DNA from: Pseudomonadota bacterium | Lineage (GTDB): Bacteria; Desulfobacterota; Desulfobacteria; Desulfobacterales; RPRI01 | NCBI GenBank assembly: GCA_018817425.1 | Contig: JAHITX010000007.1 | Location: forward strand, 62,001 to 126,000 | Length of the DNA: 64,000 bases | Reading direction: 5' to 3' | Shown here: positions 47,554-57,504 of the stretch, in pieces | Numbering within the stretch: position 1 is the first letter of the stretch | Layout: every line of letters begins with the position of its first letter | Notes under the pieces: model-generated | What the model was told of the DNA's origin: nothing | Seen by the model: only the letters and a program-made list of their open reading frames with translations | Databases searched by the model: none | Program-made: the position numbers and the translations under genes

Positions 47554-49806
47554 ATGGAAATCTATGTATTTGCGGTAGGCATATTGTTTGCCGTGGCAAG
47601 TATGGATCTAATTTTTGGTGTCAGCAATGATGCAGTTAATTTTCTTAATTCATCAGTTGGCTCCCGTGTGGCTCCCAGGCATATAATTATGATTGTGGCA
47701 AGTCTTGGCATACTTGCTGGTGTTACTTTTTCAGGCGGTATGATGGAGGTAGTCCGAAAAGGGATATTTCATCCCAAATACTTTATTATGCCTGAGTTAA
47801 TAACAATTTTCCTTGCTGTTATGATAACCGATATACTGCTTCTTGATATTTTCAACACATTCGGCTTACCCACATCCACAACAGTTTCCATTGTTTTCGA
47901 GCTGCTTGGAGCGGCCATTGCCGTATCTATTGTAAAGATCACACACAATGACCAGAGCTTGATGGCACTTTTGGAATATATAAATACAGCAAAGGCATTG
48001 AGCATAATATCGGGTATACTGCTTTCTGTGTTTATAGCATTTATTTGTGGAGCGTTAGCCCAGTTTGTTACACGACTGGCTTTTACCTTTGATTATGAAA
48101 AAAGGTTGCGCCGCTATGGTGGAGTATGGTGCGGTCTTGCCCTTACGATGATAATATATTTTATCTTAATCAAGGGCGCAAAAGGGGCATCTTTCATGAG
48201 TCCCGATATGGTTGTGTGGATTAAAACCCATACCTGGAATATATTGGGTTATGGTTTTATAGGTTTTGCATTACTGGCCCAATTTTTAACTTTATTTACA
48301 AAATTTAATATTCTAAAGTTCATTGTTCTTGCCGGCACTTTTGCTCTTGCCATGGCCTTTGCCGCAAATGACCTTGTCAATTTTATCGGCGTTCCTTTAG
48401 CCGGATATCATGCATTTACACTGGCCAAAGCCAGCACCGATCCCTTAACCATTCCTATGGCAGCAATGCAAAATCAAATTCATACCAATACTTTTTTTCT
48501 TCTGGGCGCCGGGGGTATTATGGTGCTTACGCTATGGTTATCCCGCAAAGCACGTTCAGTTACCAAAACCATGGTTAACTTAAGCCGGCAGGATGAAGGG
48601 CTTGAAAGATTTGATACATCCCGATTATCCCGCATTATGGTGCGAACGGTAATCTGGGTAATAAATACTTCAAACAAAATTTGCCCGGAATCTATGCGCT
48701 TATGGTGCAGTAAAAGATTTGATGCAAGCAATGTTCAGCCCGTTGCTGGATATAATGGTGCTATTCCTGAATTTGATTTACTCCGTGCAAGTGTCAACCT
48801 TGTAGTAGCAAGCGCCCTTGTCTCATTGGCAACCAGCATGAAACTTCCCCTTTCAACTACTTATGTTACGTTTATGGTCGCCATGGGCGCATCTCTGGCA
48901 GATCAGGCCTGGGGTTCTGAAAGTGCCGTCTATCGGGTTACAGGAGTTTTGACCGTTATTGGCGGATGGTTTTTTACCGCCTTTAGTGCATTTACTATAT
49001 CATTAATTTTTGCCTTTGTGCTTTCTTACACTAACAAATGGGCAGCTATTGTTCTATTATTGTCTGTGGTTGGACTTATAATCTTCAGAAATTTCAAGAT
49101 TCATGGCCACAGGGAAAAAGCGGTTGAAGAGCTGGAATTGTTGGATTTGAAGAGAGTGACCGATGCCAATTTTGCCGAGCGGACTTGTTTTGAGCATACC
49201 GGGCGTTATTTGAAAATAGTCCGGAAAAATCTGACCTTATGTTTTGACGGCATTCTTACCCAGGATCGTAAGCAATTGAAGGAATTGCGTAGTGGAACAA
49301 GCAAAATTCAGACATGGTCCAATATTATAGTGGCTAACATATTTAAGACGCTGCGGCTATTGCAGCAAGATGAAGCTAAAAACGAAAACGCCGCTAAGTA
49401 TTCCTATGTTGTCTCCGCATTGCAGGAAATTGCCGAGAGTCTGCGCGATATGATACTTAGATGCCATGTGCATACTTCAAACCAGCATTCAGGTCTCTTG
49501 CCTGAACAGAAAAAAGAACTTCAACAGGTACAAAAATTTGTTGAGTTGCTGCTTGACGATACCTCCCGTATTCTGCTTAACCGTGAAACGTTTCGCTATC
49601 GAGAAATTGCGGCTCATTATGTGGCGCTTAAACAATTTCTTGAAGATATTGACCACAAACAAGTGGAAAGAATTTGCTGTAACGAATCAAAAACCAGGCT
49701 TAGCATACTGTTTTACGGTATCAATAATGCCTGTCTGAAAATAAGCGAGCAAACGCTGCAACTGCTTAATATATTTGATGATATATTTAAACTGGATAAA
49801 GAATGA
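47554..49806 (+). CDS. pit: PiT-family inorganic phosphate transporter with C-terminal regulatory domain
   Basis: 750 residues. The duplicated PiT signature occurs as G-V-S-N-D-A-V-N-F-L (about residue 25) and A-A-N-D-L-V-N-F-I-G-V-P (about 270). About 12 helices extend to residue 520. A cytoplasmic helical tail (residues 545-750) resembles a PhoU-like bundle. PiT carriers move metal-phosphate with H+ or Na+. The tail makes it longer than E. coli PitA (499) and may replace a separate PhoU-like partner. Confidence 0.92.
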   Translation: MEIYVFAVGILFAVASMDLIFGVSNDAVNFLNSSVGSRVAPRHIIMIVASLGILAGVTFSGGMMEVVRKGIFHPKYFIMPELITIFLAVMITDILLLDIFNTFGLPTSTTVSIVFELLGAAIAVSIVKITHNDQSLMALLEYINTAKALSIISGILLSVFIAFICGALAQFVTRLAFTFDYEKRLRRYGGVWCGLALTMIIYFILIKGAKGASFMSPDMVVWIKTHTWNILGYGFIGFALLAQFLTLFTKFNILKFIVLAGTFALAMAFAANDLVNFIGVPLAGYHAFTLAKASTDPLTIPMAAMQNQIHTNTFFLLGAGGIMVLTLWLSRKARSVTKTMVNLSRQDEGLERFDTSRLSRIMVRTVIWVINTSNKICPESMRLWCSKRFDASNVQPVAGYNGAIPEFDLLRASVNLVVASALVSLATSMKLPLSTTYVTFMVAMGASLADQAWGSESAVYRVTGVLTVIGGWFFTAFSAFTISLIFAFVLSYTNKWAAIVLLLSVVGLIIFRNFKIHGHREKAVEELELLDLKRVTDANFAERTCFEHTGRYLKIVRKNLTLCFDGILTQDRKQLKELRSGTSKIQTWSNIIVANIFKTLRLLQQDEAKNENAAKYSYVVSALQEIAESLRDMILRCHVHTSNQHSGLLPEQKKELQQVQKFVELLLDDTSRILLNRETFRYREIAAHYVALKQFLEDIDHKQVERICCNESKTRLSILFYGINNACLKISEQTLQLLNIFDDIFKLDKE

Positions 49807-50129
49807 TTTAGTATGAAGCACCCCCTTCAACGGATTATTATAAAATAAATAACGTATAAACACCATAAAGAAAGCTCCACCCAGAGGTATCGAATCATTT
49901 AGCCCTGTTACAAGAAAAACTCCGCCCATTTTCTGATTAAATTATGGGCGTTGCACTCGGTATATTCAGCTGATCGGCAAAATAGTATAGTATTCTGTTA
50001 TACGGGATAAGCTGAAACTGTGACATATAGACAGAATGTGTTTGAGACCCATCCCATATTGAACTGCTTTTGTAACACCTTCAGGAAAAGGGGCGATAAA
50101 CTGTTTGCCTTCATCGTCTTCAGTGGAGC
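49807..50129. other. Intergenic stretch with possible transposon debris
   Basis: 323 bp between pit and the istA relic. Nothing definite; short frames near 50000-50130 may be the decayed continuation of the transposase. Confidence 0.4.
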
Positions 50130-50523
50130 CTTAAGCCGGACCATTATCTGGAGTTGATCCAACAAAGGCCCCAGGCCTTTTTCTCGGCACGTCCTATCCG
50201 GCAATGGCGCAGCAGTTGGCCGAACTGTCTGGAACGGCTTTTAGAACTTTTCATAAAAAAGCAGGGAGCTACAAAAGGTGTTAAAGATTTTATCTCCGTA
50301 TTAATGCTGTAACAAGGACCATGACACCAAGATAATTGAAACAGCCATAGAAAAAGCCCTTTATGCCAATACCGGATTAAGCGATGCGGTAAAACATATT
50401 TTGCTAAATGGCCAGGTTACCCATTTTGGTTCTTTGGAAAATTGGCACACATTTCCACCTCCAGATGTTTCTGTTTATCAACAGATCGGAGGTTATACAT
50501 TCGCTTTCACTCCTTTTTTTTAA
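50130..50523 (+). pseudogene. istA (IS21-type transposase) 3' fragment with frameshift
   Basis: From 50130 one frame reads L-K-P-D-H-Y-L-E-L-I-Q-Q-R-P and A-R-P-I-R-Q-W to L-M-L, then a stop. After a one-base insertion (CTGTAACAAG in place of CTGTACAAG) a second frame continues K-D-H-D-T-K-I-I-E-T-A and ends F-P-P-P-D-V-S-V-Y-Q-Q-I-G-G, the usual IstA end. The N-terminal and catalytic parts and istB are absent. Confidence 0.75.
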
Positions 50524-50725
50524 ACCATCTGCAACCAACGGTAACAAGCAAAACAGCCAGACCTATGCCGCCGCATCCTAAACAGGATGAGCAATTCCCG
50601 CCATTGCACTTAGACAAAGCCGCCAGACCGGCCAAACCGCTTGAAGCGCCGAGCACTCCGAACAGGAACGTTTCCTTGATCTTCTTCCGGGTTAAAGCTT
50701 TAAATTCATGTTTATCCGCGTTCAT
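50507..50725 (-). CDS. Small cysteine-rich membrane protein
   Basis: 72 residues. A basic N-terminus is followed by two hydrophobic segments around a cysteine cluster (S-K-C-N-G-G-N-C-S-S-C-L-G-C-G-G) and a lysine-rich end. The start at 50725 is chosen over 50767 because it follows AGGATAAACAG. The cysteines could bind metal or a cluster at the membrane. It ends inside the decayed istA tail and may be the last gene of the TonB/polyferredoxin unit. Confidence 0.55.
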   Translation of the reverse strand: MNADKHEFKALTRKKIKETFLFGVLGASSGLAGLAALSKCNGGNCSSCLGCGGIGLAVLLVTVGCRWFKKKE

Positions 50726-50908
50726 CTGTTTATCCTGTAAAATGGAGGGCGGCTGTGTAACCCACATAAGCGCTAAGTTAGTTTATTAAGTTCATCAATA
50801 AAAACGATCCTCGATATCATACCGTTTATCTTCCTTCGACATTCATTATTCCTTGTTCTAAATTCGATATTCAAATTACTTTCATATAATTGCTATAGTT
50901 TAATTGAC

Positions 50909-51787
50909 TTAACGCTTATGTGTTTGCCCCCCCGGCACGCGGCTCAACAATCCTGGCTCCACCTTTCCAAAGGTAATAGCGCCCTGAGGACAGGCCGTTA
51001 AGCAGTTCCCGCAGGGCATACACGAAAGATGGTCGATACGTGCCGTATCATTGATCTCAACGGCCCAGACTGGACATACTTCTTTGCATTTGCCGCAGCC
51101 ATTACATTTTTCGGCAGATATAAAAAATCTTTTGCCAAACCGTTGGCCAAACCGGTTTGAAAGGGCATCCAGCGCTCCAATGGGGCATAGCAAATTGCAG
51201 TATCCCCTTCCTCCTTTTGCCAGAAATCCAAGTAAAACCACTAAACCAAGATTGATGATTCCTGCCGTCCTGAAAAAGTAGGCAAGATCCGCAGGGGAAA
51301 AGGCCGCACCAAACATTCGGGGAATTGTGGCAAAATTACAGTAGTTACAGCAAAGACTGCCGATTCCAAATGCCGCCGCTAAAAAATATACGGACAAATA
51401 CCCGTACCGGAAGGCCGGTGCCGGAATCCTGGAAAAATCGATTTTAAGAAACCGTGGAACTAGGCGGCTTCCCAACTCCATAGCCCCGCCCACCGGGCAT
51501 AAGTGGCTGCACCAGTAACGCCCCCAAAATAAGGTGGATATCAGAACCCCAAACACCAGGGCAACTCCCATATAACTTCTCAGATATCCTGCAAAATAGG
51601 CACTTGCTGATATACCATTGCGCCAGACAAAAAACATACGGGGACACCATGTGCCGCAAAAATTGCTGTCTGCTGTAAATTGGAAAACAAAGGATAAGGG
51701 CGGCAAAAACAAGAAAAGAGACAGAAGCATAATCGCAAACCTATACCTTGTCATAAAACCCTTTTCAGTGCGGGTAAACGGTTTCAT
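50909..51787 (-). CDS. NapH/YccM-type membrane polyferredoxin
   Basis: About 292 residues. Four to five transmembrane helices are interrupted by C-S-H-L-C-P-V-G and C-N-L-L-C-P-I-G, then two [4Fe-4S] motifs at the C-terminus: C-N-G-C-G-K-C-K-E-V-C-P and C-M-P-C-G-N-C-L-T-A-C-P. Such proteins bring electrons across or to the membrane surface. ATG at 51787 is chosen, with AAGGAAAAGGAAAACACAG upstream; it overlaps the previous gene by 23 nt. Its place downstream of a TonB receptor suggests reduction of an imported metal or cofactor (inference). Confidence 0.85.
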   Translation of the reverse strand: MKPFTRTEKGFMTRYRFAIMLLSLFLFLPPLSFVFQFTADSNFCGTWCPRMFFVWRNGISASAYFAGYLRSYMGVALVFGVLISTLFWGRYWCSHLCPVGGAMELGSRLVPRFLKIDFSRIPAPAFRYGYLSVYFLAAAFGIGSLCCNYCNFATIPRMFGAAFSPADLAYFFRTAGIINLGLVVLLGFLAKGGRGYCNLLCPIGALDALSNRFGQRFGKRFFISAEKCNGCGKCKEVCPVWAVEINDTARIDHLSCMPCGNCLTACPQGAITFGKVEPGLLSRVPGGQTHKR

Positions 51788-52292
51788 CTGTGTTTTCCTT
51801 TTCCTTAAAGATAATTGGGACGCGCAACAGGGAATTACCGGACCCGGTATCGTAGAATGCCAATGAATATTTTTTGCCAACTGTTTTATGGTTTGGGTCC
51901 GTTAATTTGTTTTTGCCGGATACAGGTCTCATAACAAGCCAAAGGGAAATGCGATCTCCAGGTTTAAGATCATAGAAGATATTATCCTGAAATCTTGGTT
52001 TATCGCGAAAACCCATATCCACAATTGGTTCCGCCGAAAAAAGTTCATAATTCATGGGCAAACTCCCTTCCAGAACCACCCGTGCATCTCCATGATAAGG
52101 AGGCAGAATTTTTGCCGTAACAATCTGTGTATAACGCTTTTTACCGCCTGTATAGTAGGATGGGTGCCGGGCTTTTCCTCCCCGTTCGGAAATCAGCCCT
52201 ATGGCATGGCCGGAATCGCCCCACCGGTAAACGGCGGCAAAAAGTGAAAGCCCGGCAGAAAGTATAAACACCAGGGTTTTTTTGTATCGCAT
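51765..52292 (-). CDS. Periplasmic/membrane-anchored protein of unknown function in the TonB cluster
   Basis: 175 residues with an N-terminal signal or anchor (K-K-T-L-V-F-I-L-S-A-G-L-S-L-F-A). The remainder is strand-rich without recognised motif, with F-Y-D-L-K-P-G-D-R-I-S-L-W-L as a likely beta-sandwich segment. It lies between the TonB receptor (10 nt gap) and the polyferredoxin gene (overlap), so it belongs to that transport or reduction unit. Confidence 0.7.
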   Translation of the reverse strand: MRYKKTLVFILSAGLSLFAAVYRWGDSGHAIGLISERGGKARHPSYYTGGKKRYTQIVTAKILPPYHGDARVVLEGSLPMNYELFSAEPIVDMGFRDKPRFQDNIFYDLKPGDRISLWLVMRPVSGKNKLTDPNHKTVGKKYSLAFYDTGSGNSLLRVPIIFKEKENTDETVYPH

Positions 52293-52302
52293 TTGTTAAC
52301 CT

Positions 52303-54468
52303 TTAGAATTTGCAAGTTAAGCGGAGCATAAGAGTCCGGGGAGACGCCGGTGTGTAACGAATAACACCCCGTGTATCTTTTTGTACCTCAACAGCATAGA
52401 ATTCATCAAACAGATTGCGCGCATCAAGACTTATGTCGATTGATCCGATTTCATAGGCAATCATGGCGTTGGTAACGAATTCGTAGCCTTCGTATTTTTC
52501 GGAATTGGCATTATCTATATAATAGGAACCCCAATAAAGGGTTTCAATTCTGAATCGAAAACCGGACGGATGACGATAGGAGCCGGAAAAAGAGAATTGA
52601 TTTTCCGGCACAAATGGCAAGGTGTTGCCGTTTGTGTCCAGATTGATTACCGTCCCATTCACATTGATCGGTTCGGAAAATTCATCAAAGGTGTAATCCG
52701 TATAAGAATAAGCACCTCCAACTTTGAGCGCGGGTGTGACAAACCAGTAACAGGAAAATTCAAACCCTTTTTTGTTCGTTTTTCCTGAGTTCACATACTG
52801 CGTTTCACCGCCGGTTCCAATTACCTGAACAACTTCATTTTTAACCGGGGAAAAGTAAAAGGCCGTATCCAATGACCAGCGCGGGTGACGCGCCTTTAAG
52901 CCTATTTCATAATTATAGATTTTGACCGTATCCAGTTCAGGGTTCTCGCTCAACTCGCTCTCGGTTGGGGTCTGGATGCCCCTGGAAAACTGAGTATAGA
53001 TGTTCAAACCCTCAATCAGCTTATAGGAAATTCCCAACCGGGGGCTAAAATCGCTGAAGGATTTATCAATATCTTCCGGATCAGAAGCCAGAATGTAAGT
53101 TCCGGCAGAATAGTCAAAGGTTTCTGATCTGGAACCGGTAATGTCGAATTTCACCTCATCGTAACGTAAGCCCAGATCCATGATACACCGGTCGGTGGGT
53201 TGAAATGACTCCTGGGCATAAATACCGTATAGATCCGTTTTTCTGTCTTGAGTTTCAATAAGTTCGCCACGGGTATCGGAGAGTACTTCTGTAATCCGGC
53301 CCCCGAATCCGGTGGCATACTGTGCGTATTTGTAATAATCAGTTTCCTGATCATCAAACCGGCCTGTCACACCAAAGGTCAGGGTTCCGGGCCTGTCTGC
53401 AAGTTGATGGGAATGATTGGCCTGTAGGTCCATGCCGTAGGTATTAGTATCCGCATGGTTGATTCTCCCGGTCACAGGATGGCGATGATTCCATGAATTG
53501 ATAAAAAAAACCGGTTGCAGTTCAACGCTGCCTATCTGCTTGGTCCATCTTGAGTAAAAGAAAAAGATCTCCGAATACCGGCCGGAATACTGCCAAGGCC
53601 CTTCGGTCTCCCTGGCTTTACCGGTCTTTAAGTATTCTTTGAACATGTCCTGATCCAGTTTGCCCGGCAATTGAATGGATGCGTCCGTATAACCGAAATA
53701 ATTTTCAAGGGTCGATCCGTCCTCAAACATAAGGGATGCCTGTACCGAACCCTGTGTGCTCTCAAACTCATTCCATCTGCGCCAGTCGTTATCGGTTTCA
53801 CGCCTGCTGGCACTGACAGTGTAATAGAACATATCTCCTGTATTGCCGGAAAAAGACAGATGACCATTAAAGGCATTGGATTCACCAACGCCAAGTTTAG
53901 CAATCCCGCCTTCCCGCTCAAAAGGGCTTTTGGTGATGATATTGATCACACCGCCTGCCGCATTGGCTCCCCACAGGGTTGAATTCGGGCCTTTGACCAC
54001 CTCGACCTGCTTGATCAGTTGTGTGTCTATGAAATCCAGACGTGTAAAACTGTCAGGGTCGGTTATTGGCACACCATCCATAAGCACCATGATATCCCTG
54101 ACACCGTACCGGGCCTTCAGACCCGACCCACGGATAATTAGCCGGGAGTCGTACCCCTGATTCGGAGATTCTATCAGTACTCCTGGCATTCCTTCCAGAA
54201 CCTCCTTAATATTGAACATCCGGGTATTTTCTATTTCATTTTCATCGGCAATTTCCACGCTGGCAGGGATTTCCAGAGTTTGTCTTTTCAAGCGTGTAGC
54301 AGTAACACTGACTTCTTCCAGCATATGTTCCTGCGCCTTGTCTTCTTCCGAATAAACAGGGCAGGCAGTAATTAATAGGATTATAATAAATAAGAAAACG
54401 CCATTTAAAACTCTTACAGCAGTTCTGTGATCATCTGGGCAATGTAATACTTTATATCTTTTTTTCAT
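52303..54468 (-). CDS. TonB-dependent outer-membrane receptor
   Basis: 721 residues. Signal segment (cut near C-P-V-Y-S), a TonB box-like stretch (L-E-E-V-S-V-T-A-T), a plug domain ([34 protein letters not shown]), and a 22-strand-type barrel ending in L-R-L-T-C-K-F. The substrate is not evident; siderophore, cobalamin and metal chelates are the usual choices. It overlaps the DUF6485 gene by 17 nt and leads the unit 54468 to 50507. Confidence 0.92.
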
Positions 54469-54655
54469 TTACCAAACGCGCAAAGTGTTCAAAAGATCTG
54501 TCATATGTTTTTTCCGCATCAGCGGAAAAACAGCATCCGGGCAGTTGTCTGCTTTTAAGATGATATTTCAAGCATTCGCAGCAATAGCCTTTTCGTTTAC
54601 AAGGCTCATAACTACAGTTACATGTTGTGAGATTCTTATCGACTTTACATTCCAT
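54452..54655 (-). CDS. DUF6485-type cysteine-rich small protein
   Basis: 67 residues with C-N-C-S-Y-E-P-C[13 protein letters not shown] and L-P-G-C-C-F, the pattern of the uncharacterised DUF6485 family of anaerobes. The seven-plus cysteines and histidine suggest a metal or cluster site. There is no signal peptide. It overlaps the receptor start, so it may be a cytoplasmic metal handler or sensor for that unit (inference). Confidence 0.75.
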
Positions 54656-57206: not shown

Positions 57207-57360
57207 AGCGGATTTTATATTGTTTTTGGAAGTAATTTCAGCGAAATTTCATGCATCCATTTATCAATAAATAAATGACAAACTGCCTCGCCATTATTAA
57301 AACAGTCATTCGAACCCTATAAATATGGATATTTTCCCATATGCATATATTTTATTTTTC

Positions 57361-57504
57361 AGAGCCACTTTCAAAACGTTTCAGTTTGGTCAAGCTCAAG
57401 GCGTGAGAAAATTTCAACCACAGGAATACATATAGTATTTCGAGGATTGAAATTTTAGCCCAACGCTGAGATCGGCCAAAATGGGGCGTTTTGAAACTGG
57501 CTCT
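57361..57504. repeat. 144-bp imperfect palindromic element
   Basis: The outer arms AGAGCCACTTTCAAAACG (57361-57378) and the reverse complement of 57487-57504 match at 17 of 18 positions. Inner stretches (GGTCAAGCTCAAGGCGTGAG against CGCTGAGATCGGCC) are partly complementary, and TTTCAA/TTGAAA pairs near the centre. It has the form of a MITE or REP-like genomic repeat, in a gene-free region. Confidence 0.75.

Follow-up and report, generated by a model that had tools for sequence, protein, structure and literature searches.

A conserved four-gene module of TonB-dependent receptor and membrane iron-sulphur protein with a probable role in copper acquisition

The window analysed here, a 64,000-nucleotide stretch of contig JAHITX010000007.1 (assembly GCA_018817425.1, a bacterium of the Desulfobacterota), carries on its minus strand a module of four genes, which encode a TonB-dependent outer-membrane receptor, a 175-residue protein with an immunoglobulin-like (Ig-like) fold, a membrane iron-sulphur (Fe-S) protein and a small cysteine hairpin. 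The module is real and conserved, and its gene order is maintained far beyond chance. It probably serves copper acquisition with reduction by the Fe-S protein, copper being suggested by the genomic context and reduction by the class of the protein. Bacterial copper import is poorly known, above all beyond the Proteobacteria. The module is apparently undescribed; no description of the four-gene set was found in the titles and abstracts of PubMed Central papers under CC0, CC BY or CC BY-SA licences, subscription papers falling outside this scope.

Gene order and boundaries of the module

The initial annotation had described five overlapping or closely spaced minus-strand genes. All five open reading frames (ORFs) are present at its coordinates and with the broad identities it gave, in series from 54655 to 50507 of the window:

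54452-54655, minus strand: DUF6485 protein, 67 residues (Pfam DUF6485, 47 bits; cut-off 24)
52303..54468, minus strand: TonB-dependent outer-membrane receptor, 721 residues (Pfam plug and TonB barrel; signal-like N-terminus)
51765..52292, minus strand: 175-residue protein with one N-terminal transmembrane helix and an Ig-like beta-sandwich, presumably exported, without a YHS domain (AlphaFold2 mean pLDDT 86; no Pfam family)
50909..51787, minus strand: four-helix membrane 4Fe-4S protein of the NapH/CcoG type, Fer4_5 plus ferredoxin (Pfam; hydropathy and positive-inside charges)
50507..50767, minus strand: 86-residue protein, a small membrane hairpin with C54-x4-C59-x2-C62-x2-C65 between two hydrophobic segments (cysteine conservation; hydropathy)

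The DUF6485 gene and the receptor gene share 17 nt, at the 3' end of the former. The receptor gene is followed after 10 nt by that of the 175-residue protein, whose end overlaps the start of the Fe-S gene by 23 nt, and a gap of 141 nt separates the Fe-S gene from the hairpin gene. The Fe-S ORF spans 50909-51880, with its likely ATG at 51787; the likely ATG of the hairpin gene is at 50725.

With the alignment of the Fe-S protein alone as query, 25 public contigs were retrieved from a collection of species genomes. The 175-residue family adjoins the Fe-S gene in all 25, the hairpin is present in 24 (the remaining contig ends within the Fe-S gene), and a related receptor is found upstream in 21 (adjacent in 20, at 2.4 kb in one), two of the four misses being contig edges. 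By title the contigs belong to Desulfobacterota, Nitrospirota, Acidobacteriota/Thermoanaerobaculales, Schekmanbacteria, Deltaproteobacteria, a Marinobacterium bin and one unassigned bin; two of those titled Deltaproteobacteria are placed in Myxococcota by the tree tool. These loci are numbered L007-L034 (28 in total, 25 distinct): L010, L014 and L021 duplicate the contigs of L009, L007 and L008 and are excluded from per-locus counts, and the locus comparison has n = 26. The annotation had proposed a search for the same gene order elsewhere, and the neighbourhood is indeed conserved in these 25 contigs of several phyla.

The linkage of four of the five genes is thus borne out by their fixed order in relatives; the fifth, DUF6485, is an unrelated neighbour. 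As a candidate member it was rejected because tblastn found none in the 28 other module loci, though both copies in sister genomes were recovered, because two of nine other genomes of the genus have DUF6485 without the module, and because DNA similarity to the window stops at the DUF6485 stop codon.

Within the window's class the 175-residue family occurs in 4 of 291 genomes (profile search), a single-sequence query adding one marginal match (E 1.5e-4). The profile search found the family in none of the eight other genomes of the genus drawn with the class. A first genome scan with the single 175-residue sequence was unproductive, and the plasmid and viral collections contained no relatives of the module. 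In a tree of 24 Fe-S proteins, which like the alignment omits two partial proteins (L029, L033), the window copy groups with three Desulfobacterota copies (support 100/99). The GC content of the four module genes is 0.45-0.48, against 0.37-0.41 in the flanking genes. The window averages 0.39, and its most GC-rich 2-kb stretch starts at 52000. The four genes were likely acquired as a block.

Two forms of control suggested in the annotation did not materialize at the locus: there is no Rfam match for a riboswitch, and no Fur-type site with up to 3 mismatches. The promoter scan (25 sites, 17 expected from shuffling) is uninformative, as is the terminator scan.

Some side observations concern the layout of this and other copies. 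In L009 (8256-9763; the same contig as L010) a module copy is without the receptor and the N-terminus of the 175-residue protein, and its genome has no NosL match; in L023 (7787-9958) a second TonB receptor is located between the hairpin and ExbB. Beyond the hairpin gene, window 49800-50500 reads like broken transposase pieces; those apparently readable at 49800-50320, of IS66-like appearance, were rejected for want of Pfam support. Window 57345-57503 is probably a small interspersed repeat, because three places in sister genome G047 (L041) resemble it at 77-91%.

Conserved residues and candidate metal sites

The Fe-S protein matches Fer4_5 (62.5 bits) and a 4Fe-4S dicluster domain, and contains four hydrophobic segments. 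Among 24 homologues, 16 of its 17 cysteines are invariant, namely all eight of the ferredoxin domain, both CxxxCP pairs, C44, C48, C147 and C150, and C146 is nearly so (at least 90%). The following sites are distinguished:

51638..51664, minus strand: motif NFCGTWCPR, with C44 and C48 invariant in 24/24, probably on the periplasmic side as judged from charges
51338..51352, minus strand: motif CCxxC (C146, C147, C150), probably on the periplasmic side; C146 and C147 sit at the extreme end of a predicted helix
50990..51106, minus strand: eight-cysteine ferredoxin domain (Fer4 families), probably cytoplasmic

The CGTWCP and CCxxC loops should face the periplasm, because they contain few Lys and Arg residues (2 and 1, respectively) relative to the CxxxCP loop (6) and the ferredoxin loop (14).

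In the hairpin, the four cysteines are invariant in all 15 aligned homologues, the alignment covering 15 of 25 copies. Its Pfam search gave a chance-level match alone (E 0.22).

For the 175-residue protein no Pfam family (FixG_C included) is matched at E ≤ 1, and a PDB sequence search with the family gave no match. Fold searches with its model gave a best Foldseek E of 1.1e-3 and a best Z of 8.4, with mixed beta-sandwich rows that include laccases and integrins; there is no specific structural match among them, and no function can be read from them. Residues D26, S27, H29, G38, G39 and H43 (D-S-x-H, GG...H) are conserved in 26 homologues. A DPVC...C...C insert occurs at one fixed place in 12 of the 26 (counted by eye); in the one copy tested, that of L008, it is Pfam YHS PF04945 (44.3 bits, cut-off 30.3), which the window protein does not match. 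Many homologues appear to have such a YHS metal domain, together with a His-rich tail.

The window receptor scores 155 bits for the TonB barrel and 83 bits for the plug, both over cut-off, shares 62% identity with its counterparts in L007 and L008, and carries EEVSVTATR, presumably a TonB-box-like motif. In all 19 full-length module receptors W326, H328, H330, H354 and M127 are identical. One candidate site is listed:

53479..53493, minus strand: motif W326-x-H328-x-H330, candidate metal-chelate site, invariant in relatives

The HxH motif is a good candidate for a metal-chelate site, because the copper importer CrtA requires an invariant His in its own (PMC12914433). The match of the window receptor to structure 9RVQ, identified as CrtA (PMC12914433), has an E of 1.2e-13. 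Its nearest solved structures are PqqU/YncD (E 1e-38), which would suit import of an organic redox cofactor such as pyrroloquinoline quinone (PQQ) for use by the other module proteins. Such a role is very improbable, considering that the receptor scores 173.3 bits where the PqqU model NF041535 has a cut-off of 1200, and that a metal-type YHS domain, a cysteine hairpin and NosL are ill-suited to a quinone cofactor. The genome of the window has 23 TonB receptor matches, contrary to the statement in the initial annotation that such receptors are not abundant in the lineage.

Genomic context and the choice of metal

Import followed by reduction of a metal complex, as first proposed for the locus, fits the conserved module. 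The likely metal may now be narrowed to copper because of NosL, the YHS domain and the CruR-like upstream ORFs (uORFs) of relatives.

NosL binds Cu(I) and serves the assembly of nitrous oxide reductase (PMC7558416). Among 113 neighbouring proteins the tally is TonB_C 15, ExbB 11, ExbD 10, NosL 6 and FtrD-like 4; other families have at most 3 each, save a second TonB model, among the 25 of 119 families listed. The selection rule had given 131 proteins, of which 20 were left out; two L007 NosL genes missed by the gene caller were added by hand, so that 4 of the 6 NosL were found by rule. By locus, the module is accompanied by ExbB in 11, ExbD in 10 and TonB in 14 of 26. The fetched flanks, 0.31 of the 86.8 Mb of the 25 other module genomes, contain 9 of their 44 NosL matches, where 0.16 are expected. 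NosL is present in 21 of 26 module genomes and in 51 of 291 genomes of the window's class, two sets that differ in phylum make-up; within this class it is found in 3 of 4 module genomes (P 0.018, relatedness ignored).

The window's genome has its two NosL genes on a different contig, next to those of an ABC transporter and of a 339-residue membrane protein, which by reading is of the same kind as module neighbours in L007, L015 and L019. Membrane proteins of 331-345 residues without a Pfam family, each beside a MacB-type ABC transporter and NosL, were also noted at L015 11550-12587, L007 5692-6687 and L042 6201-7220. As to copper enzymes, the cut-off for COX1 is exceeded in 16 of 26 module genomes, and a full-length NosZ-like match occurs in 3 (one over cut-off); the window's genome has neither. 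At L007 10978-13998 a COX2(CuA)-cytochrome c gene adjoins a COX2-Fer4_5 fusion ORF, at least 2.4 kb from two genes for NosL; comparable pairs of hits in G303, G306 and G309 may represent a separate copper electron-transfer cluster.

The uORFs were sought in the 16 loci where a complete module receptor is preceded by 300 nt or more of sequence. Twelve of them have an ORF of 88-206 residues that contains cysteines, starts with a hydrophobic, signal-like segment and has Pro-Pro within its last 15 residues. A Cys stands 49-52 residues ahead of the last Pro-Pro in 12/12, where 2.6 are expected by shuffling, the range having been chosen after inspection of the data and the uORFs being partly related. 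Six share LDVC, at a Cys-to-last-Pro-Pro distance of 49 (one) or 51 (five), and that of L019 has CxxC at 54/51 before the last Pro-Pro and an exact RAPP. As a control, an ORF ending in this way was found upstream of 0 of 19 other receptors in the window's genome, a single genome of lower GC. This control comprised 20 of 22 other matches (two with internal stops omitted), one being without sufficient upstream sequence, and gave 0/19 with Pro-Pro in the last 13 residues, under which L019 would drop (11/16), as well as in the last 15.

CruR of Bordetella is a uORF ahead of the receptor CrtA, with CxxC at 90-93 and RAPP at 139-142, which puts a Cys about 48-51 residues ahead of the C-terminal Pro-Pro; copper relieves its arrest, whereupon Rho terminates transcription (PMC9426467). 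The arrest was later demonstrated in vitro, and in many phyla TonB-related and copper-related genes are reported to be preceded by RAPP/RGPP uORFs (PMC12992588). CutF, a relative, has CxxxC and a proline-rich end (PMC9973294). The module uORFs have the layout of the copper-sensing arrest peptide CruR, and a similar arrest function would follow by analogy. In a side observation, the upstream proteins encoded at L019 4723-5097 and L023 3261-3587 are related to each other, have no Pfam family and contain the motif YVCGCPMMCCNTIS...CxC; they may be another metal-binding partner.

Under copper acquisition, the receptor would bind chelated Cu(II) and move the complex across the outer membrane with TonB energy, and the membrane-anchored Ig-like protein would receive copper at the inner membrane, on its outer face. 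The Fe-S protein would pass electrons from a cytoplasmic donor via the ferredoxin domain and the two CxxxCP sites to CGTWCP and CCxxC, whose periplasm-side cysteines would reduce Cu(II) to Cu(I). The CxxxxCxxCxxC loop of the hairpin may then accept Cu(I) and hand it on to chaperones, NosL in several relatives. In most relatives with testable sequence, the CruR-like arrest-peptide ORF would turn the operon off at copper sufficiency.

Several points weigh against this assignment, which draws on sequence and genomic context. The model of the Fe-S protein (pLDDT 60) is too poor to show its cysteines close together, and there is no inner-membrane permease within the module. The receptor is closer to PqqU than to CrtA. 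Exact RAPP is found in a single uORF, no DUF2946 was found in 10 upstream ORFs (nine from the set of 12) by Pfam at E ≤ 10, and the uORF was not found in 4 of the 16 testable loci (window, L007, L008, L023). Five of the 26 module genomes are without a NosL match. The window's genome has no match to COX1, COX2 or clade-II NosZ as a customer for the copper. The window copy is without the uORF, the YHS domain, adjacent ExbBD/TonB and adjacent NosL; it is a minimal form, for which copper is suggested by homology, the NosL genes being located elsewhere in the genome.

This sparse setting, the elevated GC content and the absence of the family from the eight other genomes of the genus would also agree with a transferred, partly stripped relic of little present function, as would the related G220 copy, from which the receptor and the N-terminal part of the 175-residue protein have been lost. 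That the window copy is such a relic is unlikely, since its four frames are open and retain the invariant cysteines and histidines, and since the genome has other TonB receptors and the NosL-ABC cluster; the relic would in any case be compatible with copper as the metal.

Iron is the usual ligand of TonB receptors of this type, and the best NCBIfam model of the window receptor is the siderophore receptor TIGR01783, though below cut-off (201.5 against 223.5 bits). The FtrD-like neighbours, named for an iron system, could likewise point to iron. The module might then import and reduce a ferric chelate (a siderophore or citrate complex), the Fe-S protein being a ferric-chelate reductase. This alternative is considered unlikely, in view of the lack of a Fur-type site at the locus, of the NosL enrichment and CruR-like ORFs, which point to copper, and of the recurrent neighbour families listed, among which no iron permease or siderophore gene is found.

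Heavy-metal systems, too, contain small cysteine hairpins and YHS domains, and periplasmic reduction could serve sequestration. It is nevertheless improbable that the module handles another soft metal (e.g. mercury or silver) or protects against copper rather than acquiring it, because a TonB receptor beside ExbBD/TonB genes favours acquisition, and the recurrent families among the neighbours listed include no efflux protein, mercury reductase or regulator of resistance.

Copper acquisition thus remains the preferred explanation. A more complete picture is possible and is advanced tentatively, namely a hitherto undescribed copper machine of largely anaerobic phyla, composed of an arrest-peptide sensor, an HxH receptor with its own ExbBD/TonB, an Ig-like/YHS receiver, a periplasmic-face Fe-S cupric reductase and a Cu(I) hairpin relay that feeds NosL. 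If true, this would to our knowledge be the first route to couple outer-membrane copper uptake to iron-sulphur reduction. With its fixed order in Nitrospirota, Desulfobacterota and Acidobacteriota and, in many copies, a CruR-like regulator, the gene set would provide a testable copper route. The Ig-like/YHS protein and the hairpin would each represent a new protein family, the Fe-S protein would be a candidate cupric reductase of the periplasm, and copper-sensing arrest peptides would extend beyond DUF2946.

Comparison with known systems

The module resembles several known systems in part. PqqU and YncD are the closest solved structures to the window receptor, which is far under the family cut-off, and no PQQ-related family is recurrent among the neighbours listed. 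OprC and NosA are likewise TonB-dependent receptors in a copper context, and NosA serves NosZ (PMC7558416). Their CxxxM...HxM site, however, is not a trait of the module family, because the receptors of L008, L015 and L020 contain no cysteine (the window receptor has 5); the module receptors have the invariant HxH instead.

NapH and MauN share with the Fe-S protein the Fer4_5 core with CxxxCP motifs and the ferredoxin domain. In contrast to them, the Fe-S protein falls short of the cut-off of TIGR02163 (58.3 against 213 bits), and the module has no quinol dehydrogenase partner.

CcoG (RdxA/FixG) is a membrane protein with two 4Fe-4S clusters, a Fer4_5 core and ferredoxin, and an Ig-like periplasmic domain, and is described as reducing Cu(II) and not Fe(III) (PMC7558416); in PMC13038864 it is described as a cytoplasmic copper reducer. 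An Ig-like part is involved in both systems. Whereas CcoG has both parts in one chain, the module encodes its Ig-like part as an anchored protein of its own, which does not match FixG_C and whose gene overlaps the Fe-S gene; the 17 Pfam families matched by the Fe-S protein at E ≤ 1 do not include FixG_C either. The Fe-S protein differs further from CcoG in its extra periplasm-side cysteines and its link to an outer-membrane receptor.

The module appears to work like cruR-crtA-crpH of Bordetella pertussis (PMC9426467, PMC12914433, PMC13038864), the likeness being one of arrangement rather than of demonstrated membership in its protein families. In both, an exported Cys...Pro-Pro uORF (in module relatives) precedes a TonB receptor, which is followed by a membrane protein that is a suggested periplasmic copper reducer. 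The module receptor is only distantly related, the uORFs are not DUF2946, and the module occurs in other phyla. The reductase role, which in Bordetella falls to a haem PepSY_TM protein, would fall in the module to the Fe-S protein, and the module adds the Ig-like/YHS protein, the cysteine hairpin and, in many copies, ExbBD/TonB.

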